Assembly: GCA_020052095.1 (NCBI GenBank)
Contig: JAGVPT010000165.1
Coordinates: forward strand, 1 to 35,546
Direction: 5' to 3'
Source of the DNA: Bacteroidota bacterium
GTDB taxonomy: Bacteria > Bacteroidota > Ignavibacteria > UBA10030 > UBA8401
Length of the DNA: 35,546 bases
Translations under genes and position numbers: made by a program
Part shown: positions 498 to 11,413 of the stretch, piece after piece
Numbering within the stretch: the first letter of the stretch is position 1
Layout of the letters: each line of letters opens with the position of its first letter
The notes under the pieces: model-generated
What the model was told of the DNA's origin: nothing
Databases searched by the model: none
What the model saw: the letters and a program-made list of their open reading frames with translations, nothing else

Positions 498-3400
498 ATG
501 GGAAAAAATCTCACTAGATATTCTCTTTATACAGCCATCCACATCGCCTCTTTGTTTGTGGCGCCGAATAGCCACGCACAAAATGCAATCGGGGACACTG
601 TTCGGGCGGAAGAGTATGTTAAGAGAGCATGGGACGCATATCTTCAGGTCGAATATGACAGCTCGATCTTCTTTTATAGAAGAGCTGCAGATATCTTTGT
701 GAAGGCTGAACGATGGGAACGATATGTTCATTGTCTTAACATTATCGGAGACTGCTATTCAAGGGAACTCAGGTTGGATTCGATGGAAGTGATTTTGCAA
801 AGAGCGCGTAAGCTAGGGGAAGAGACCCTTGAACCCGATAACCTCGAATGCGCCCTAACGTACAGCCTTCTTGGCCTTTTATATGTGGGTCGAGACAAAC
901 TTGAAGTTGCGATTGAAAATATTTTGAAGGGGAAAAATATTCGCGAATCGAAGTTAGGCAAAGATCATCGCAAGGTTGCGGCGAGCCACTTTTTGCTTGG
1001 AGCTGCGTACTCTTACAAAGGCGAATACGACAAAGCGATTGAGACGTGCAGAGAGGCATTGCGAATATATGCACTCTTGGCTGACAATGACAACTTTGAT
1101 CTAGCAAACACTTTCATGCTAATTGGAACCGTGTTTGTTAGAAGAAGTGATAACGACATTGCCTTAAGCTACTTTTTGAAAGCGCAGTCGCTCATTAATG
1201 ATGGCAGCAGGAAATATGCACAACTCGTTGTTCATTGTGAGGATAACCTCGGCTGGGCGTACTTGGAGAAAGGAGACTATGCAAAATCAATTGAACATCT
1301 GACGAAAGCTATTGATCTACATTCTAAATCATTCGGAGAAAACGACGTCACAATGGCATCTTGCTACTCCAAACTCGGGGCTGTTTACGGGGCACTCGGC
1401 GACTATGACAGAGCGATAGAATTCTATCAGAAGTCGCTCACAATAGACAAGCAGCTTCTGGGTGAGAATCATTCATTCATTGCGGGAATTGGTAAGGAAT
1501 TGGCAATAGCCTTCGCGAATAAGGACGAAATTGATAATGCACTACGATCCTCATATCAATCACTATCAATTTATCGCAATGTATATGGAGAGAATCATCC
1601 AACACTTGGCTACAACTACGAAACGCTGGGCAATATCTACAAAAAGCGTGGTGATGATTCCCTTGCATTAGTCAATTATCAAAGGGCATTAGCCATTCGA
1701 TTGCAGCTAAGAGAATCGTATGACCGAATTGACGTTGCCAATCTCTACTCAGAGATTGGGTCAGTGTACAAAGAGATGAATCACAACGAACGCGCCATCG
1801 GGTACTTTAACAAGTCTTTGCAACTTTACAACAATTTGCCCGAGCCAAATCGATCACAGCGTGCCGCAACACTAAAGGGCCTCGGAGACGTATACACCAG
1901 ACAAAGAGAATTTGCCACAGGACTCCATTACTATCAACAAGCGATAATCACTCTCGTGCCGGAATTCTCAGACACATCCATTCAATCGAACCCAACGCCT
2001 CATGATGTCACGCACGGTAAAGTCCTCGTAAAAGTGCTCGGGGCAAAAGCCGCTGCGTTTGAGCTATGCTACTCGCCTAGATCTCGAGATTTATCAAACC
2101 TCCAAGCATCATTGTCGTCTTATGAATGTGCTGATAGGGTTGTCTGCCTCTTGCGGCGGAGACTTACTGCAGAAGGATCAAAGCTGTTCCTCGAAGAGGA
2201 GAGCCATTCATTATACCAAAACGCGATCAGGGTCAGCATGAAGCTCTTCAACGCAACTCAAAAGACGCGATATAAGGAAGCAGCCTTCCATTTCTCCGAG
2301 AACAGCAGGGCAAATATATTACTGGACGGTCTTGTTGATGCGGATGCAAAACAGTTCGGAGGAATAGCCGATTCGATCATTGAAAAGGAAAGATCATTGA
2401 GAATTGATCTCACTTATTACGAAACAAAATTACAGAAAGAAATCGACAAGAAGGAGAAGAGTGACACATCGAAGATCATCGAGCTACAGAACAGATGTTT
2501 TGCGCTCAAAAATAACATACAAGAATTGTTGACATTGCTTGATAAAACGTACCCACGATACTTTGAAATGAAATACAAGAACGATTCGCCGACGATCGGC
2601 GAACTCCAAAATGCGATTGATGACAAGACTTGCATCCTTGAATACTCCTTGGGTGAACATACTATATATGTATTTGTGATCACCAACACTGCGTTTGGCG
2701 CCGTGGCGATCCCCAAATCGATCGGCCTCGATCAGATCGCCACGACGTTTCACAAATCTATCATAAAAATAGAAAGGGAAGAATACGTAAGAAGCAGCGC
2801 GGCCCTGTATGATGCTCTTCTCCGGCCATTGGAAAAAAGAATGTCCGGAAAAAGTCGGTTTATCATAGTTCCAGATGGTCTTCTCCACTATCTCCCCTTC
2901 GAAGCGCTGATTTCTGATCTCCCTTCACAAAAGAACGTAGCAATCGATTTCTCTGCGCTTAATTATGTCGTCCGGTCTCACGAAGTTACGTATGCTTACT
3001 CTGCTGGTTTTTACCTGAATCGTTTACGCCAAAAAAGCGGTGCACCAAAAAGAGAAAAGAGTTTTGCCGGATTTGCTCCCGTGTTTCGCGAATCCGATGG
3101 TAACGGGGTGTTCCTCGCAAAAAACGCTTCGAGGCTCGAAAGTGATTCATCGGAGTTTCGTTCGATTTCGCTTGATGGGAAAACATTCAACGAGTTGAAA
3201 TTTTCAGGCGAGGAGGTCTCTGCAATTGCGGAGCAATTCCAAAAGCAAGGAAAGCCGTGCGCCAGTTTCTTACACGGCAATGCTACTGAAGAAAATTTCA
3301 AGACACGCGTAAGCAAATACTCGTATGTCCACATCGCTACACATGGCTATATTAATGAGGGACATCCCAAACTTTCGATGCTTCTTTTTTCACAACCAAG

Positions 3401-3758
3401 TGACTCGACGACGAAGGAAGACGGGGTGCTTTACGGTGGCGAAACATACAACCTAGATCTTGACGTCGACTTACTGGTGTTAAGCAGCTGCGAAAGTGGA
3501 ATCGGGAAGCTTATGAAGGGAGAAGGAATAATGGCAATGACGCGGGGATTCTTCTACTCAGGCGCAACAAATATAATTTTCTCTTTGTGGAAGGTGTACG
3601 ATAGGCAAACGAGCGATCTCATGCGCGAGTTCTATCACAATGTCCTTGCCGGTAAGACGCTGTCTTCTTCGCTCCGCCAAGCAAAGCTAAAGATGATCGC
3701 GGACCAAAGAACTGCATTCCCGTCGAAATGGAGCGGATTTATTCTTGTAGGCTATTAG
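498..3758 (+). CDS. Exported TPR-CHAT protein (predicted caspase-like peptidase)
   Basis: A 1086-residue protein. The first ~28 residues look like a signal peptide: basic start, hydrophobic stretch YTAIHIASLFVA, then a possible SHA-Q cleavage site. Residues ~30-520 are a series of kinesin-light-chain-type TPR repeats, recognisable from recurring LG-x2-Y and G-[DE]-Y-x2-A units. A charged helical linker (~600-700) follows, then a C-terminal CHAT domain from ~780. The CHAT catalytic pair is present: His949 in ATHG and Cys998 in SSCESG. CHAT domains belong to the caspase/separase-like clan and often cleave partner proteins recognised through TPRs. Start: ATG with GAGG upstream. The gene runs tail to tail with the anti-sigma-like gene, with 9 bp between their stops, which suggests a shared module. 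Substrate unknown; the family call is firm, the function is inference. Confidence 0.9.
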   Translation: MGKNLTRYSLYTAIHIASLFVAPNSHAQNAIGDTVRAEEYVKRAWDAYLQVEYDSSIFFYRRAADIFVKAERWERYVHCLNIIGDCYSRELRLDSMEVILQRARKLGEETLEPDNLECALTYSLLGLLYVGRDKLEVAIENILKGKNIRESKLGKDHRKVAASHFLLGAAYSYKGEYDKAIETCREALRIYALLADNDNFDLANTFMLIGTVFVRRSDNDIALSYFLKAQSLINDGSRKYAQLVVHCEDNLGWAYLEKGDYAKSIEHLTKAIDLHSKSFGENDVTMASCYSKLGAVYGALGDYDRAIEFYQKSLTIDKQLLGENHSFIAGIGKELAIAFANKDEIDNALRSSYQSLSIYRNVYGENHPTLGYNYETLGNIYKKRGDDSLALVNYQRALAIRLQLRESYDRIDVANLYSEIGSVYKEMNHNERAIGYFNKSLQLYNNLPEPNRSQRAATLKGLGDVYTRQREFATGLHYYQQAIITLVPEFSDTSIQSNPTPHDVTHGKVLVKVLGAKAAAFELCYSPRSRDLSNLQASLSSYECADRVVCLLRRRLTAEGSKLFLEEESHSLYQNAIRVSMKLFNATQKTRYKEAAFHFSENSRANILLDGLVDADAKQFGGIADSIIEKERSLRIDLTYYETKLQKEIDKKEKSDTSKIIELQNRCFALKNNIQELLTLLDKTYPRYFEMKYKNDSPTIGELQNAIDDKTCILEYSLGEHTIYVFVITNTAFGAVAIPKSIGLDQIATTFHKSIIKIEREEYVRSSAALYDALLRPLEKRMSGKSRFIIVPDGLLHYLPFEALISDLPSQKNVAIDFSALNYVVRSHEVTYAYSAGFYLNRLRQKSGAPKREKSFAGFAPVFRESDGNGVFLAKNASRLESDSSEFRSISLDGKTFNELKFSGEEVSAIAEQFQKQGKPCASFLHGNATEENFKTRVSKYSYVHIATHGYINEGHPKLSMLLFSQPSDSTTKEDGVLYGGETYNLDLDVDLLVLSSCESGIGKLMKGEGIMAMTRGFFYSGATNIIFSLWKVYDRQTSDLMREFYHNVLAGKTLSSSLRQAKLKMIADQRTAFPSKWSGFILVGY

Positions 3759-3767
3759 GCAACCTCA

Positions 3768-4520
3768 TTACTTCACAAAAAACTTACCTAAGTGTAACAG
3801 CTCATCATTGTCCTCTAATTTCCAGTAATATAACCCTGGTGGAATCTTTTGCGAGAAAACATACCGAGACCCGCGGACGGAGATAGTCTGCAAAGTCTTC
3901 TCATTGTTTGAGAGGATCTTCAGAGTTAACCGATCATCCGCGTCAGCTTTCCATTGAAACAATATCCTCTCCTTAAAATTTTCTCCATTCAATGGTGATA
4001 CGACTTGAATTGAGAGAGAGCGCGAATGAGCGTTTACGAGGTTTTCCAAATTAGGAGAAACCGTAAAATTCTCGGCGAAAAATTCCTGCTCGCTGACCGC
4101 CAGACTATCACTCGGCACGAAGTTTTGGTTACCCCTCTGGACGTATTCCGGTGTAACGATAGAGCCTCTCATTAGAGTATGTTCTTCCAAAAGCATCCGA
4201 AAATAATAAGAAACAAGGCCTATGCTTATTCCGATGACGAGCACCGCTGCAACCCGGAACGCAATTGAGAATTCCTTTTCAACCTCGGCGGTTTTTTCAT
4301 CCAAGAATGGATGGGGTTCCGTGCCGCCAATTTCTGGGCCCTGAAGGAGAGAAAATATCTCGACAATCTCCATTTTGCACTCCCTGCAATCGGCTACATG
4401 GCTGAGGATGACGCTCGGGAGATGATAGACTTTGTTAAATCTGAGAGCATCGACATACAACGCGATTGCTTCGTCGCTTAAATGAGCCTTGTCGGTAAAG
4501 AATTTGTTAATCCGTGGCAT
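3768..4520 (-). CDS. Membrane anti-sigma-like protein with zinc-finger motif
   Basis: About 250 residues from the chosen start. The N-terminal cytoplasmic part has an H-x3-C-x2-C motif (HVADCREC), the mark of zf-HC2/ZAS-type anti-sigma domains. A single membrane helix follows (VAAVLVIGISIGLVSYYF). The outer C-terminal part ends in a ~75-residue beta-rich module beginning SPLNGE, with W and Y core residues, resembling an Ig/FN3-like sandwich. I chose the ATG at 4520 because AAGGA lies 6 bases upstream; an upstream ATG at 4559 has no ribosome site and lies 11 bases from the IS. The sigma gene on the same strand would have been directly upstream before the IS inserted. Likely role: holding that sigma factor at the membrane and releasing it on an envelope signal (inference). 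Confidence 0.75.
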   Translation of the reverse strand: MPRINKFFTDKAHLSDEAIALYVDALRFNKVYHLPSVILSHVADCRECKMEIVEIFSLLQGPEIGGTEPHPFLDEKTAEVEKEFSIAFRVAAVLVIGISIGLVSYYFRMLLEEHTLMRGSIVTPEYVQRGNQNFVPSDSLAVSEQEFFAENFTVSPNLENLVNAHSRSLSIQVVSPLNGENFKERILFQWKADADDRLTLKILSNNEKTLQTISVRGSRYVFSQKIPPGLYYWKLEDNDELLHLGKFFVK

Positions 4521-4561
4521 CATAAATCCTTGACATAGTGAAGACCTTTTTTTCGGCATAC

Positions 4562-4570
4562 ATGTACATA
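4562..4570. repeat. Left copy of the 9-bp target-site duplication
   Basis: ATGTACATA directly abuts the left end of the IS element and is repeated exactly at 5912-5920 after the right end. The first eight bases are themselves palindromic. Confidence 0.9.
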
Positions 4571-5911
4571 CAGTAGTGTCCGGTTAAGGACGAGTGATAT
4601 TCTTATAAGTTCTTTGAAATAAACAAGTTGGTGGATATTTTATTTTTTTCGATTTGAATTCCGCTGCGAAAAAAATGGAACTATATTTTTCAATTTCACC
4701 ATTTTTTAGGAGCAGTGGCATGAATATTGGCAGAACAATATTTTCTCAATTGACCGAGTACATTGATGAATATATTTTCAAAACAATAGTCGAAAAAAAT
4801 AAAGGGAATGAGCGCGTCCGTCACTTTACCTGTTGGGAACATTATCTCTGCATGCTGTTCGCCCAACTGACGAATAGAGAGAGTTTGCGAGATGTTGAAA
4901 CATGTCTGCGTGCAGCCGGAAAAAAACTGTATCACGCAGGTATCCGTTCACGCATCTCAGGTTCAACACTTGCCGACGCAAACGAACATCGTCCGTGGCA
5001 GATGTATCATGATTTTGCCCAGCATTTGATTCGAGAAGCACGGGTGCTGTACCGTAATGAAAAGATATTCTCAGACATAAGTACCGCAGTCTACGCATGT
5101 GATTCAACAACTATTGATCTGTGTTTGAGTCTTTTTCCATGGGCGCGCGCTACGGTCTACCAAAAAGCAAATGCCGCTATCAAGGTTCATACACAGTATG
5201 ATGTACAACAGAAAATACCCACTTAGATTAGGGTTTCTGCGGCAAATGTCCATGATGTCAACTTTATGGATGCGCTGGTATATGAACCAGGCGCGTTTTA
5301 CATCTTTGATCGAGGATATGTCGATTTCTCTCGTTTGCACCAGATCGAAAATGAAAAAGCATTTTTTGTTATTCGTGCAAAAAGATCGTTACGCTTTATC
5401 AGAGAAGCTTCATTATCCGTAGATAAGACAACCGGCGTAAGAGTTGATCAACGTATTAAGTTACAAGTGTTCTATTCTCTAAAAGAATATCCCGATCAAT
5501 TAAGAAGAATAAAATATTACGATGCTGTCCATAACCAAACGTATGTCTACCTGACGAATAATTTCCAACTCAACTCATTCACAATCGCCGAACTCTATCG
5601 CGCTCGTTGGGAAGTAGAAACTTTTTTCAAATGGATTAAGCAACATCTTCGCATGAAATCATTTTTTGGAACTAGTCCGAATGCTGTGAAAACTCAAGTA
5701 TGGATTGCAATCTCCGCTTACGTAATGATTGCAATTATTCGCAAACGACTGAACATCAACTTGTCGCTCTACACAATTCTCCAAATTTTAAGTGTTTCGC
5801 TTTTTGAGAAAGTCCATATTTATCAACTACTTACGGATAATCAAACGCAATATTTAATGCAACACTCTGATAACCTATTGAATTTATTTGACTTATAACC
5901 GGACACTACTG
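4571..5911 (+). mobile_element. IS4-family insertion sequence (DUF4372-type), 1341 bp
   Basis: The element is bounded by perfect 16-bp inverted ends (CAGTAGTGTCCGGTTA at 4571-4586 and its complement at 5896-5911) and by identical 9-bp direct repeats outside. It carries one transposase gene filling most of its length. The intact ends and exact duplication point to a fairly recent insertion. It lies between the sigma stop (5927) and the anti-sigma start (4520), in what would have been a gap of about 56 bp, and its gene reads against the host genes. No passenger gene is present. Confidence 0.93.
4720..5898 (+). pseudogene. IS4-family transposase interrupted by one in-frame stop
   Basis: The reading frame is continuous from the ATG at 4720 (AGGAG 7 bases upstream) to the TAA at 5896-5898, except for one TAG at 5224-5226. 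It would encode ~391 residues. The N-terminal part matches the DUF4372 region of IS4-type transposases. The DDE residues are visible: Asp in ACDSTTID, Asp in FDRGY and Glu in the IS4 signature Y-x2-R-x3-E-x6-K (YRARWEVETFFKWIK). The stop falls right after QQKIPT, where relatives have a hydrophobic residue, and the frame resumes with IRVSAANVHDVN. A single nonsense substitution (or sequencing error) is the simplest reading, because there is no frameshift. As written, the element could not make a full transposase unless the stop is read through. Confidence 0.9.
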
Positions 5912-5920
5912 ATGTACATA
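5912..5920. repeat. Right copy of the 9-bp target-site duplication
   Basis: Identical to 4562-4570 (ATGTACATA). It lies 6 bp before the sigma gene's stop codon complement, so the insertion left the sigma coding region intact. Confidence 0.9.
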
Positions 5921-5926
5921 TATATA

Positions 5927-6682
5927 TCATCTTTCGAGCAGAAATGGAGAGAAGAAATCATCAACCAGAATTTTTAATGTCTCAACACTGTGATTTGTCC
6001 TTTTTGGCCTTCCGTTGAGAAGGTCTATGATTTCGCGGATTTTCGAATCAGTCCATTTGCGCATTGCGTCCACCGAGTTCGATCTCTTCTCGTTCCTATT
6101 CATAATCGGAGTTACTATCTTGTAGATATCGATATCGCTCAGTTGATCATAGTTGAGCCCAAAATGTCTCGTCAGAGAGGCTTGATCTTCGCCGCTGCAC
6201 TCGGGGTACCAGAGACGAATATCTTCGGGAGTCATCGGAATTCTGAAATACAGTTTCAAACAAAGCAGAAGTTTGGGGCGTTGTGCGTCGTAGAGACTTA
6301 CAACTGTCCTAAATCTACGCACTTCATGATCAAGGACAGATCTTTTTTCATGACTGTTTTCAACGAAATAACCGCTGAGATCTTCTTGTAGAAAGTCAAT
6401 TTCTTTCTGGCCTTTGTGATGCTCCTTTAGGCAAATATTGCGCACGATGACTGAAAAATACGTTTTGAACAACGATTTTCCGTTATACTGTCTTTGCATC
6501 GCGGGTATCTTGGCCAAAAGCGACACATTGATTTCTTGGATGATATCGTCGAATTCAGGTGCCCTGAACATCCCCGCCTCGATATACTTTTTTACAATAA
6601 TTCTGACGGTCTCTTGATATTTCAAGAGAAGCGCATGAGGATCAGACCGAAGCAATTCGACATCTCTATCATTATCCGTCAT
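5927..6682 (-). CDS. Atypical sigma-70-family factor
   Basis: About 251 residues from the ATG at 6682, which has GGAG 6 bases upstream; in-frame ATGs at 6694 and 6709 are alternatives with weaker sites. Roughly residues 10-110 resemble sigma region 2: acidic DDIIQEI as in region 2.2, then an aromatic-rich segment (YFSVIVRNICLKEHH) like the -10 melting region. The rest is unusual: instead of the common ECF region 4 helix-turn-helix close behind region 2, there is a ~120-residue segment with an acidic stretch and a basic C-terminal part (RPKRTNHSVETLK). Promoter choice may therefore differ from standard ECF factors. It lies upstream of the anti-sigma-like gene on the same strand, separated now by an IS. 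Sigma assignment is likely; the subgroup is unknown to me. Confidence 0.72.
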   Translation of the reverse strand: MTDNDRDVELLRSDPHALLLKYQETVRIIVKKYIEAGMFRAPEFDDIIQEINVSLLAKIPAMQRQYNGKSLFKTYFSVIVRNICLKEHHKGQKEIDFLQEDLSGYFVENSHEKRSVLDHEVRRFRTVVSLYDAQRPKLLLCLKLYFRIPMTPEDIRLWYPECSGEDQASLTRHFGLNYDQLSDIDIYKIVTPIMNRNEKRSNSVDAMRKWTDSKIREIIDLLNGRPKRTNHSVETLKILVDDFFSPFLLER

Positions 6683-7605: not shown

Positions 7606-7634
7606 TTGACCGTTGTCCAACAAAAATTAAAATT

Positions 7635-7643
7635 GAGGAGGTG
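7635..7643 (+). promoter_or_regulatory. Strong ribosome binding site that fixes the TTG start of rpsU
   Basis: GAGGAGGTG is a near-perfect anti-16S complement. It leaves 7 bases to the TTG at 7651, while the TTG at 7645 would be too close. This decides the S21 start. Confidence 0.8.
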
Positions 7644-7650
7644 ATTGTAT

Positions 7651-7848
7651 TTGGTCGGCATTGTCCTTAACGAGAATGAACCAATTGATCGCGCCCTAAA
7701 ACGTTTCAAAAAGAAATACGAGCGGTCCGGCGTTTTAAAGGAATTCAAAAAGCGCACGTTCTTCACGAAACCTTCTGTGAAGAAACGAATGAAAAAAGTG
7801 AAAGCGATCCGCCGCTCTCAGCGGGCGGACGCTGAAGAGAAGATGTAA
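7651..7848 (+). CDS. rpsU: 30S ribosomal protein S21 (TTG start)
   Basis: A 65-residue basic protein. The N-terminal core VGIVLNENEPIDRALKRF and the following KKKYERSGVLKEFKKR are characteristic of bS21, with a Lys/Arg-rich tail. S21 binds the 30S platform near the anti-Shine-Dalgarno helix of 16S rRNA and assists initiation. TTG is used as start, supported by the strong upstream ribosome site and because family members begin M-V-G. A hairpin terminator follows 5 bases after the stop. Length is normal for the family. Confidence 0.95.
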   Translation: MVGIVLNENEPIDRALKRFKKKYERSGVLKEFKKRTFFTKPSVKKRMKKVKAIRRSQRADAEEKM

Positions 7849-7852
7849 AACG

Positions 7853-7890
7853 AAACCCATCCCGAGACGATCGAGATGGGTTTTCACTTT
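7853..7890. terminator. Hairpin terminator between rpsU and the convergent dipeptidase gene
   Basis: A 9-bp perfect stem, AAACCCATC (7853-7861) with GATGGGTTT (7875-7883), loop of 13, followed by T-rich sequence on the plus strand and A-rich sequence before the stem. It could serve both convergent transcripts. Confidence 0.75.
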
Positions 7891-7904
7891 CTAGTCCCCC
7901 CCGC

Positions 7905-9086
7905 CTATCTGCACGCCGCCGCAAACACTCTCATAAAATTCCCTCCTAAGATTTTTCGAATGTCATCGTCGGAGTAGCCCCGCTTCTGAAGCTCCCGGGT
8001 AATAGCAGGAAGATGCGTCACATCTTCCATGTCTTGGGGGGGCGCCGATATTCCATCAAAATCAGAACCGAGGCCGACATAGTCAACTCCCACTAATTTT
8101 ACCACGTATTCAATGTGGTCGATCAGGAGCGAAAGAGGCGCGCGCACATCGTCAACTTCCTTCGCAAGGAGCGAATCGATGATGTCGTTGGCGTGGTCCT
8201 CATCTTTGTAAATGCTCTTCACGGAATCGCTCAAGGCCGTGTGATTATGTCGAATCTCGGAAACCCGGCGGTCGTACGTGCTGTCAAGAAAGCCGGAATA
8301 AAAATTAATACACATCACTCCCCCATTTTTCGCCAGCGCTTTTATTTCTGCATCCTTCAAGTTGCGAAAGTGCGGAGCCAGTGAATAGACAGACGAATGA
8401 GAGACAAGCACCGGCTTTGTCGAGGTCGCGATGGCGTCGTAAAACGTTTGCTCGCCAACATGGGAAAGGTCGACCATCACGCCGAGTTCATTCATGCGCT
8501 GAACTATTTTTATTCCGAATTCGGTGAGGCCTTTGTGCGTGAGGCTCTCCGTATGTTTCGTTTCATCCAATCCGGACGTTGCCCACGATGTGCTGTTGTT
8601 CCACGTAAGCGTCATATACCGCATGCCGCGTTTGTATAACTCGTCGAGATACTCCAGCTTATCTTCGATCGGATGCCCCCCCTCTACACCAATGACGGCC
8701 GCCAACTTATTCTGCCTCACGATGTCCGCGGCTTCACGTGCTGTCCGGGCGATAGCGATCTTCTCCGGATTCCGTTGCACGTCGGCCTCGAGCGAATCGA
8801 TCATTTGATTCGCGCGCTTATATGCTTTTGCCATGCCATACTCCGGTCCCATCCACACCGAAAACACTTGAACATCAACCCCGCCTTCTTTGAGCCGCAC
8901 CAGATCGGAATGCCCCTCGGATGTTCGTCGTGAGATGTCTCTGCCGGTCATCACCCGCATCAGGACGTCGTTGTGCGCATCGGCAACGAGTGATGAGAAA
9001 TGAAGTGTCCGATAATCCGATTGCTGTGAAATCGAAACGGAAAAAAGGAAAATTGTGATAAACATGCTCTGGAATATCTTCGCCAT
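7905..9086 (-). CDS. Exported membrane-dipeptidase-like protein (peptidase M19)
   Basis: A 393-residue protein with a signal-like N-terminus (FITIFLFSVSIS before QQSD). The M19 fold is recognised from the zinc ligands in order: His38-x-Asp40 in DAHND, Glu135 in VEGGHP, His209 in DLSHVG and His230 in LVSHS, then GLGSDFDG near residue 345, which carries the conserved aspartate region. The family hydrolyses dipeptides, including some with D- or dehydro-residues, at a binuclear zinc site. The signal suggests periplasmic or lipid-linked action. It stands alone, convergent with rpsU and divided from the anti-sigma gene by 143 bp. Full length for the family. Confidence 0.93.
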   Translation of the reverse strand: MAKIFQSMFITIFLFSVSISQQSDYRTLHFSSLVADAHNDVLMRVMTGRDISRRTSEGHSDLVRLKEGGVDVQVFSVWMGPEYGMAKAYKRANQMIDSLEADVQRNPEKIAIARTAREAADIVRQNKLAAVIGVEGGHPIEDKLEYLDELYKRGMRYMTLTWNNSTSWATSGLDETKHTESLTHKGLTEFGIKIVQRMNELGVMVDLSHVGEQTFYDAIATSTKPVLVSHSSVYSLAPHFRNLKDAEIKALAKNGGVMCINFYSGFLDSTYDRRVSEIRHNHTALSDSVKSIYKDEDHANDIIDSLLAKEVDDVRAPLSLLIDHIEYVVKLVGVDYVGLGSDFDGISAPPQDMEDVTHLPAITRELQKRGYSDDDIRKILGGNFMRVFAAACR

Positions 9087-9229: not shown

Positions 9230-10678
9230 CTAGAGTTCGAACGGATTGTTGTACCGTTTCTTGATCTGATTTACTCGCGGTTGCGATTTTCTGTCTCGCG
9301 GAAGATTAATTAATGAATCAAGATCGATACCGCGCCGACGCAGAGGATCGAATTTTCGTGCCTCCGCGGAGGGTTTGCGTGAGCCGTTGTTGAAGAATTG
9401 AATTGATGGCTCGGAATCATCATTGAAAAATTTTCCAATTTCCGGCATTTCCTGCGACTCATACCTGAACCTTATCGCTTGGGGCGCTCGCGCCATCACT
9501 TCGAACGGCATCTCCTCGCGCGACGATTCGAGAGCGTTGTTTTCAACTCTGACGCTGAAGTAGTCCGAATCGGAGAAAACCTCGAACGATGCATTCGGGG
9601 TTCTTGGAAGGCGCGCATGTGTGGAAAATTCCCTGATCAACGCATGCGCTCTCGCATTCACCGATCGGAATTCCTGTGCGGTGAGTTCTATATTCTGGCG
9701 ATCATACTCCAAGTCGACATTGATCTGTGCAAACGAACAGCTCTCTGGTGTGATTACAACGAACTGCTCCATGCGAGGCGCACGAGGCTCGCTAGGCTCG
9801 CTTGCGTCCGTTCTAGGAGTAGGGGCTGCAACAACGGCGAAGGTATACGGCGAATGCGACGTTATAAGAAATTTTCGAAATTTCTTCCGCTGCGGCAAAT
9901 CCAAACTTGCTGCGAGATGAGACATCGTCATCCGATTAAACTTTGCCAAATCGGCATGCACGGCCAGTGCCTTGTTCTCACCCAGAAAAACCGATTTTTC
10001 TATCTTTTCTTTTGCAGACGTAAGGATCGAATCGACTATTCTCTGTTGCGCTGGAGTCGCATCCACTACATCGCAAAATTCCTGCACAGTAACCTGGGGA
10101 TGCTGCTTTGCCTCGTTCTTCGCAAACTCAATTCGGGCACCATTTTCCTTGCTCTCATCAACGCGGAGCGCAGTGTTGGCTCGCGCATCGAGCGGCAACG
10201 TACCAAAGAATGCGAACTGTAGAACTTGATCCTTGTTCAAACTGGAGAAAAGCGGTAGCAACTTCCCTTGTAGTATATTCTCCTGGTATAGATGTTGAAC
10301 TTCTTCCTTCTTCTCGAAAAAAACCTTTGTCAGCAACGAGCGCTGCTGAAACAGCAGTACGCCGGCCGATGTTGCGATAAGGACAGCAAGAGAAGCTGCA
10401 ATGGGCATGTATTTACGAGAAAATGGATAGACGGTCTCTCGCTTATTCCGTTTTTCCTCAAGACGGGCAGACAACCTTTGCCAAAACCATTCGTTCGATG
10501 GAATTGCCGGTTGCGATTTCAGCAGTTGCTGTTGTTTCTTCAGAATTTCCAATTCGGATGCAGCTTCAGGGTTTGCCGCGAGATACTCCTCGAATTCGCG
10601 ACGACTTTGTTCGTCAAGCGCGCCGTCGAGATAGAGGGAAAGCGATTGGGAAAACTCTTTTGGTGACAATTCTTTCAT
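9230..10678 (-). CDS. Membrane anti-sigma-like protein with large outer domain
   Basis: A 482-residue protein. The N-terminus (YLDGALDEQSRREFEEYLAA) is the acidic helix pair typical of zf-HC2-type anti-sigma domains, but without the usual His/Cys zinc ligands. One membrane helix lies at ~93-112 (PIAASLAVLIATSAGVLLF). The outer ~370 residues include a helical part (~205-275) with a Q-rich TPAQQ motif similar in flavour to Spy/CpxP-like proteins, then a low-complexity region rich in R, E and P. It lies 25 bp downstream of the ECF sigma gene on the same strand, the standard sigma then anti-sigma order. It probably sequesters that sigma factor until an envelope signal (inference). Confidence 0.78.
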   Translation of the reverse strand: MKELSPKEFSQSLSLYLDGALDEQSRREFEEYLAANPEAASELEILKKQQQLLKSQPAIPSNEWFWQRLSARLEEKRNKRETVYPFSRKYMPIAASLAVLIATSAGVLLFQQRSLLTKVFFEKKEEVQHLYQENILQGKLLPLFSSLNKDQVLQFAFFGTLPLDARANTALRVDESKENGARIEFAKNEAKQHPQVTVQEFCDVVDATPAQQRIVDSILTSAKEKIEKSVFLGENKALAVHADLAKFNRMTMSHLAASLDLPQRKKFRKFLITSHSPYTFAVVAAPTPRTDASEPSEPRAPRMEQFVVITPESCSFAQINVDLEYDRQNIELTAQEFRSVNARAHALIREFSTHARLPRTPNASFEVFSDSDYFSVRVENNALESSREEMPFEVMARAPQAIRFRYESQEMPEIGKFFNDDSEPSIQFFNNGSRKPSAEARKFDPLRRRGIDLDSLINLPRDRKSQPRVNQIKKRYNNPFEL

Positions 10679-10703
10679 CTGATTACTCCTTCCATCACAC
10701 GAA

Positions 10704-11300
10704 CTACGATTCGAGCAATGGTTTCAAGACATTCCGCAACATCGTTCGGGCTCGGGAGAGCCGTGACTTCACTGTGCCAATTTCACATTGCATAATCTCG
10801 GATATTTCTTCGTACGTCATTCCGTCGATATCTTTCAAAATGATAGGAATCCTGAACTTCTCCGGAAGCTGCTTCAGGCCTATGGCGATGAGTTCTTGCG
10901 TCGAGTTATCCTCCGGGTTTACGCGGATTTTTGATTGAAGCTCGGCATTCGAACCATCGAGCATCGCATGAAGCGAAAAAAACTTCCGCATTTTTTTCCT
11001 CCTCATCTCATCTCGGCATTTGTTTACCGTAATGCGGTATAACCACGTGTAGAATGAGGACTCAAATCTGAATTTCGGCAAGGCTTCATACGTCCGAATA
11101 AAAACATCCTGAGCGATATCGTCGACGACCGAAGCGTCACTGAAGATGGAATAGATCAGGTTCCTTACCCTCTCTTTGTGACGGTCAACCAGAATCCGAA
11201 ACACTCCTTCTTCCCCACTCTGGAAGAGGGATATGAGGATGTCGTCGCTCTTCTGTTCAAGAGGCGTAACGGTACCCTGAACAACTTCTTGGTTGACCAT
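10704..11300 (-). CDS. ECF RNA polymerase sigma factor (RpoE-like)
   Basis: About 198 residues from the ATG at 11300; a TTG at 11330 would add 10 residues, and neither has a clear ribosome site. Region 2 is visible (DDIAQDVFIRTYEALPKF, then SSFYTWLYRITVNKCRDEMRR), and region 4 carries a standard helix-turn-helix (MTYEEISEIMQCEIGTVKSRL followed by SRAR). This is a typical group-4 sigma factor directing a small regulon, usually for envelope stress. The anti-sigma-like gene follows immediately, so the two are almost certainly co-transcribed. Family certain, regulon unknown. Confidence 0.93.
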   Translation of the reverse strand: MVNQEVVQGTVTPLEQKSDDILISLFQSGEEGVFRILVDRHKERVRNLIYSIFSDASVVDDIAQDVFIRTYEALPKFRFESSFYTWLYRITVNKCRDEMRRKKMRKFFSLHAMLDGSNAELQSKIRVNPEDNSTQELIAIGLKQLPEKFRIPIILKDIDGMTYEEISEIMQCEIGTVKSRLSRARTMLRNVLKPLLES

Positions 11301-11413
11301 CCGCGGCGGTATGTTTTTAGATTCACTCAATTAGACGAATACGCGTGGGTATAAGTTCCTTCGAAATATATTGAAGGTCGGGGGAAAGGTCAAAAGGAAA
11401 CAAAGAAGAAGGG

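Follow-up and report, generated by a model that had tools for sequence, protein, structure and literature searches.

What would a predicted-exported, caspase-like protease be doing beside a sigma factor and its putative membrane-bound inhibitor? The question is raised by contig JAGVPT010000165.1 of a Bacteroidota bacterium (assembly GCA_020052095.1; Ignavibacteria, UBA10030, UBA8401), the 35,546 nucleotides of which are referred to here as the window. It encodes a tetratricopeptide repeat (TPR)-CHAT protein, a single-pass anti-sigma protein and an extracytoplasmic function (ECF)-like sigma factor. An original prediction made from this sequence proposed a relay in which an envelope cue activates the CHAT protein, which then cuts the outer part of the anti-sigma protein and leads to release of the sigma factor. 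We identified a conserved three-gene module with an intact CHAT catalytic dyad, matching predicted topology of the CHAT and anti-sigma proteins, and co-evolution of the anti-sigma ectodomain with the CHAT domain. On balance, we think that the CHAT protein would bind and cut this ectodomain and so start sigma release.

Conservation of the three-gene module

Within the GTDB family of the host (22 genomes), we identified the CHAT gene in 12 genomes and the sigma gene in 10, and all genomes with the sigma gene also carry CHAT; at the E-value used for these counts, G012–G018 show differences of detail only. In most CHAT/sigma pairs of the family, the two genes share a contig, occupy opposite strands and flank the anti-sigma gene. 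In the host genome, a second copy sits at a contig edge (C145, locus L010), where the anti-sigma gene (207–920, + strand) and the CHAT gene (930–4070, − strand) are again 9 bp apart. The type A sigma profile matched 16 genomes of a class sample of 294, of which 14 showed a strong CHAT match; in the 15th (G495) the CHAT gene is split into two frames beside the sigma/anti-sigma pair. A CHAT scan of named genomes located sigma and anti-sigma genes beside CHAT in Ignavibacteria, Bacteroidales, Balneolaceae, Chitinophagales, Saprospiraceae, Acidobacteria and a metagenome-assembled genome of Aminicenantes. The three genes thus strongly co-occur in relatives, which was the first check that the original prediction had called for.

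For the linkage count we used only CHAT open reading frames (ORFs) flanked on each side by more than 3 kb and scored a sigma gene within 3 kb. These loci were picked by CHAT similarity, except for L195, L196 and some class loci, which were fetched via a sigma match. A sigma gene was linked at 6/7 loci in the family and at 8/10 in the class sample plus one phylum locus (L195–L230), that is, at 14 of the 17 full-flank loci of these samples combined. Linkage was found at 18 of 37 named non-cyanobacterial loci and at none of 14 cyanobacterial loci. Given that the host genome contains 12 Sigma70_r2 matches in 3.9 Mb, we estimate chance linkage at about 2–3%. We saw convergent, co-directional (sigma, anti-sigma, CHAT) and also divergent gene orders, indicating that the linkage has outlasted several rearrangements.

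Five of the co-directional sigma–anti-sigma–CHAT loci (L224, L225 and L227–L229) encode a CHAT protein that begins with an export-like segment and ends in a membrane helix. At L225 the outer part of the anti-sigma protein gives a weak TPR-like (YbgF) match in place of the immunoglobulin (Ig)-like domain.

The proteins encoded in the window

The window CHAT domain scores 207 bits against a curated cut-off of 24 (PF12770), which places it well within the family. As had been predicted, His949 and Cys998 are both present, and they align with the invariant histidine and cysteine of relatives. This pair is invariant in 17 CHAT sequences from the GTDB family and is retained by all 136 unbroken CHATs in the linkage survey, a count that takes in the cyanobacterial controls and excludes CHATs fetched later. 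Proteolytic activity of the window protein is predicted from its sequence. For the CHAT proteins, PADLOC returned only generic TPR matches, so that it assigns them no defence label. The predicted signal peptide (MGKNLTRYSLYTAIHIASLFVAPNSHA, followed by Q), judged on sequence and hydrophobicity, is plausible in the window copy, where hydrophobicity is moderate, and clearer in orthologues. Upstream of the gene, a stretch at about 120–260 (− strand) is conserved with a matching stretch at L043 (two species of the same genus) and seems to be coding on the strand opposite to CHAT (QPLSPxGRxLAQF).

The CHAT and anti-sigma genes are convergent and, in agreement with the original prediction, lie tail to tail with a gap of 9 bp (ORF ends 3758 and 3768). 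The anti-sigma protein has the anticipated zinc-type membrane architecture, with an Hx3Cx2C motif, one transmembrane (TM) segment and an outer Ig-like domain. The motif is invariant among 15 anti-sigmas of the family and present in 35–36 of 39 in a wider set. Because Pfam gave no N-terminal zinc-finger match for the window protein and NCBIfam only a weak one to RseA (E 0.02), its identity as an anti-sigma rests on the motif, the predicted fold, the gene order and its relatives. Anti-sigma profiles produced no significant match to PDB sequences. In the AlphaFold2 (AF2) model (pLDDT 79.9), four short helices at the N terminus are followed by a long membrane helix and, from residue 173, a beta sandwich; residues 121–143 are modelled with low confidence. 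The N-terminal helical domain with Hx3Cx2C fits class I anti-sigmas (ASDI), with weak sequence-profile support. Structure matches of the sandwich reach Z 8–9, as for a common fold, and include C-terminal tails of the type IX secretion system (T9SS); profile matches agree. From the gene order sigma–anti-sigma, the protein is predicted to bind and inhibit its cognate sigma factor.

Immediately N-terminal to the Ig domain, 40 anti-sigmas share the linker motif F-x-P-x-P-x-L-E-x-L-V-x4-[RK]-S. The basic position is arginine in 38/40 and lysine in 2/40 and is followed by serine in 34, with most positions between variable; information per column is 2.10 bits in the motif versus 0.75 in the neighbouring linker. 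Its position would make it a natural spot for recognition or cutting. Some long ORFs matching the anti-sigma Ig domain resembled candidate CHAT fusions. Two of these have T9SS-type tails at their end and the others are unrelated proteins; none contains CHAT, so they provide no evidence of fusion. Two short lone ORFs, G000:C194:9548-9721 (−) and G004:C19:255468-255686 (−), match nothing of the anti-sigma protein beyond its N-terminal zinc part.

The sigma gene lies upstream of the anti-sigma gene on the same strand, as described in the original prediction, which made no mention of an IS4-type element separating the two. This element has 16-bp terminal repeats and a 9-bp target duplication (ATGTACATA), and its transposase frame is interrupted by one in-frame TAG. 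A copy that is 89% identical, with the frame open, is present elsewhere in the host genome. In relatives, the sigma–anti-sigma order is uninterrupted. The window sigma factor matches Sigma70_r2 (E 1.7e-4), slightly below the Pfam curated cut-off, and TIGR02937 sigma70-ECF (E 1e-8), also below cut-off. No sequence match to sigma region 4 was found in the window copy, and the sigma profile had no match among PDB sequences. The PDB structure matches of its AF2 model (mean pLDDT 80.8) are sigma factors, the region 2 fold included, with Z near 10, a modest value for helical proteins; the match to 1or7 covers two domains across residues 1–229 in a different domain arrangement. The window contains a second, ordinary-looking pair of ECF sigma and zf-HC2 anti-sigma genes (9230–11330) without CHAT.

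Table 1. Features of the module in the window and of related loci in other contigs and genomes
Feature	Position	Strand	Evidence or remarks
TPR-CHAT protease, predicted export, 1086 aa	498..3758	+	CHAT match in Pfam (E 4.5e-61), numerous TPR models
Probable signal peptide, aa 1-27 (SHA/Q)	498..578	+	Sequence and hydrophobicity, clearer in orthologues
TPR region, ~aa 36-490	603..1967	+	TPR matches; limits approximate
CHAT domain, aa 766-1085	2793..3752	+	His949 codon 3342-3344, Cys998 codon 3489-3491
Single-pass anti-sigma protein	3768..4559	−	Relatives, AF2 model; conserved start probably 4523 (251 aa)
Outer Ig-like domain, T9SS C-terminal tail-like	3771..4013	−	AF2 model, structure and profile matches
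Arg168-Ser169 in the ectodomain linker; candidate site of docking or cleavage	4017..4022	−	Putative role
Membrane helix, AF2 helix aa 87-119	4167..4265	−	
Zinc motif Hx3Cx2C: H42, C46, C49 (251-aa numbering)	4377..4400	−	Alignment of relatives
IS4-type insertion, 1341 bp, DUF4372 and DDE transposase	4571..5911	+	9-bp target duplications 4562-4570, 5912-5920
ECF-like sigma factor, 260 aa	5927..6709	−	Conserved start probably 6682
Dyad-less CHAT, host genome (G000) contig C179	L013:8624-11323	−	Tail to tail with ECF sigma gene, then LiaF-like protein
ECF sigma, then LiaF-like, facing dyad-less CHAT	L013:6872-7570 and 7611-8537	+	
Loci of TM-less sigma/anti-sigma-like pairs	G599 L269-L282, L299, L300; G600 L283-L286, L292-L296; G598 L287, L288, L290		

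Co-evolution and shared predicted topology of the CHAT and anti-sigma proteins

Over 35 modules, evolutionary distances of the CHAT domain correlate with those of the anti-sigma ectodomain at r 0.56 versus 0.08 for the zinc half. Within 20 type A modules the corresponding values are 0.65 and 0.01 (Mantel p 0.0005), and in 70% subsamples the ectodomain-minus-zinc-half difference stays above zero in both module sets. A correlation of the zinc domain with the sigma factor (0.70 over all types, 0.21 within type A) was dropped as firm evidence.

The original prediction named a cytoplasmic CHAT protein as grounds for abandoning the proposed contact; we found that CHATs paired with membrane anti-sigmas have N-terminal export-like segments. 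The CHATs of L080, L081, L090 and L114 lack an export signal, and their genomes carry anti-sigma homologues, at roughly twenty loci in G599 and ten in G600. Nearly all the homologues fetched from these genomes are without a TM helix, most lie beside a sigma gene and many beside an export-less CHAT. By sequence, these TM-less pairs, many beside cytoplasmic CHATs, appear to be a large paralogous signalling family in some Bacteroidota. When the two partners were tabulated, 41 loci had both a TM helix and an export signal, 13 had neither and 11 were discordant (Fisher p 2e-6, uncorrected for relatedness). Most discordant rows appear to stem from start calls set too far upstream or from TM scores barely below threshold, and the CHAT starts of L081 and L284 are ambiguous.

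A proposed relay and its alternatives

Because the topology change is shared and the ectodomain co-evolves with the CHAT domain, our analysis favours direct contact between the two over mere co-regulation; this part of the original relay gains support, and the remainder is set out here as a model. The cytoplasmic zinc domain of the single-pass anti-sigma protein would hold the sigma factor. The TPR-CHAT protein would be exported to the side of the membrane that bears the ectodomain, which it would recognise through the linker motif and the Ig domain, with the TPRs perhaps sensing the activating cue. Once activated, CHAT would cut the ectodomain in or near the linker at Arg168-Ser169, and this first cut would lead to regulated proteolysis of the anti-sigma protein by later proteases and to release of the sigma factor. 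Cut sites vary among Craspase orthologues (PMC11106740), so the conserved arginine-serine pair of our module may serve in docking and not be the bond that is cut.

Several observations weigh against this relay. Among the named non-cyanobacterial CHATs, roughly one in two lacks a sigma gene within 3 kb, and in one genus the sigma/anti-sigma pair and the CHATs sit at separate places. At convergent loci the ectodomain DNA lies beside the CHAT-domain DNA, so that shared recombination could raise their correlation. Topology was assessed from hydrophobicity alone, and on the CHAT tree the export-less CHATs form one clade and thus represent a single evolutionary change, though both partners changed. 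A third CHAT of the host genome (L013), adjoining another sigma gene, has neither catalytic residue, suggesting that some family members may act through binding; this CHAT/sigma/LiaF-like set is possibly a binding-only form of the same logic. Lastly, the insertion sequence between the anti-sigma and sigma genes may disturb the operon and cause its mis-expression in this genome.

The strongest alternative, which we nevertheless regard as unlikely, is that the anti-sigma protein detects an envelope signal in some other way and that the freed sigma factor drives the CHAT gene, with CHAT acting elsewhere and contact unneeded. Sigma factors frequently control neighbouring genes, and the co-directional loci could each form one operon. 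By eye, no shared promoter motif was evident upstream of the sigma and CHAT genes at 11 loci; this comparison, a test of low power, carries no weight for or against sigma control of CHAT. However, such an arrangement predicts neither the tracking of the CHAT domain by the ectodomain, and not by the zinc half, nor the joint change of compartment by both partners. The original prediction had offered this as its own alternative, and these two observations disfavour it.

A somewhat less probable possibility is binding without cutting, or the reverse relation: the ectodomain would anchor or restrain CHAT, and CHAT occupancy in place of proteolysis would tune the anti-sigma protein, or the anti-sigma protein would inhibit CHAT. 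Co-evolution and shared topology fit this equally well, as does the L013 protein described above, but the catalytic dyad is found in every unbroken CHAT surveyed, and the sole experimentally studied pair of CHAT and sigma inhibitor acts by cleavage (PMC10028731). That the genes are passive neighbours with an inherited order and no functional link is very improbable, since the same convergent order at many family-level loci would fit it but the three kinds of gene order, the distant lineages, the different sigma types and linkage far over the 2–3% expectation contradict it.

Relation to known systems and implications

The proposed cleavage of the anti-sigma ectodomain by CHAT can be compared with several known systems. 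As in RseA-DegS-RseP and RsiW, the anti-sigma is a single-pass protein with a cytoplasmic domain, here predicted to bind sigma, and an outer part that is the proposed target of the first cut; profile matches to RseA and RsiW are weak. DegS is a PDZ serine protease, whereas the protease proposed here for the first cut is the caspase-like CHAT. The Ig sandwich of the ectodomain resembles T9SS C-terminal sorting domains, and PorU, a caspase-clan cysteine protease, cuts just before the T9SS tail. In contrast to that system, the tail-like domain here ends a membrane anti-sigma rather than secreted cargo, and the protease is the CHAT protein. The N-terminal helices with Hx3Cx2C and the adjoining ECF sigma gene are shared with class I anti-sigmas (PMC7406223). 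Unlike known ASDI proteins, this family has a distinct ectodomain motif, a CTD-like Ig domain and a CHAT linkage, and in one clade the membrane helix has been lost.

The closest parallel is the type III-E Craspase/CASP system (Csx29, Csx30 and CASP-sigma RpoE), where the gene for a TPR-CHAT protein likewise accompanies those for a sigma inhibitor and an ECF-type sigma. In Craspase, cleavage of the sigma inhibitor Csx30 by the TPR-CHAT protease Csx29 relieves the sigma factor (PMC10028731); the sigma inhibitor is likewise the proposed substrate in our module. Here, unlike in Craspase, CHAT is predicted to be exported and the inhibitor is a membrane anti-sigma with an Ig ectodomain. No CRISPR effector was seen among the genes at the module loci, and no Cas7-11/gRAMP or CRISPR array among the translated ORFs of the window, where no dedicated Cas or CRISPR-array search was made. 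The CHAT profile gave no significant match (E 0.81) to PDB 8d9h chain E, a CHAT domain protein that we take to be Csx29, and PDB searches with anti-sigma profiles yielded no match to Csx30. A CHAT-sigma link outside type III-E CRISPR was not found in open-access papers; most subscription literature lay outside this search, and earlier reports are possible.

By analogy, the module is most likely a CRISPR-free, mostly envelope-spanning counterpart of the CHAT/sigma-inhibitor/sigma relay. A broader proposal, offered tentatively, is that TPR-CHATs are a general class of anti-sigma-cutting proteins with envelope and cytoplasmic versions (the latter at about twenty loci in one genome), of which the type III-E Craspase relay would be one captured branch. 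If the relay reading is right, CHAT proteases would be a common bacterial route of sigma activation, beyond their roles as CRISPR or defence effectors, the envelope version would add a protease of a new type to those making the first cut in membrane anti-sigmas, and a possible origin of the Csx29-Csx30-sigma relay would be suggested. The analysis gives an orphan protease group a testable candidate substrate and site. It suggests that many Bacteroidota-type bacteria carry a predicted-exported caspase-like protease beside a sigma factor and its membrane inhibitor, and that cutting of the inhibitor would switch genes on.

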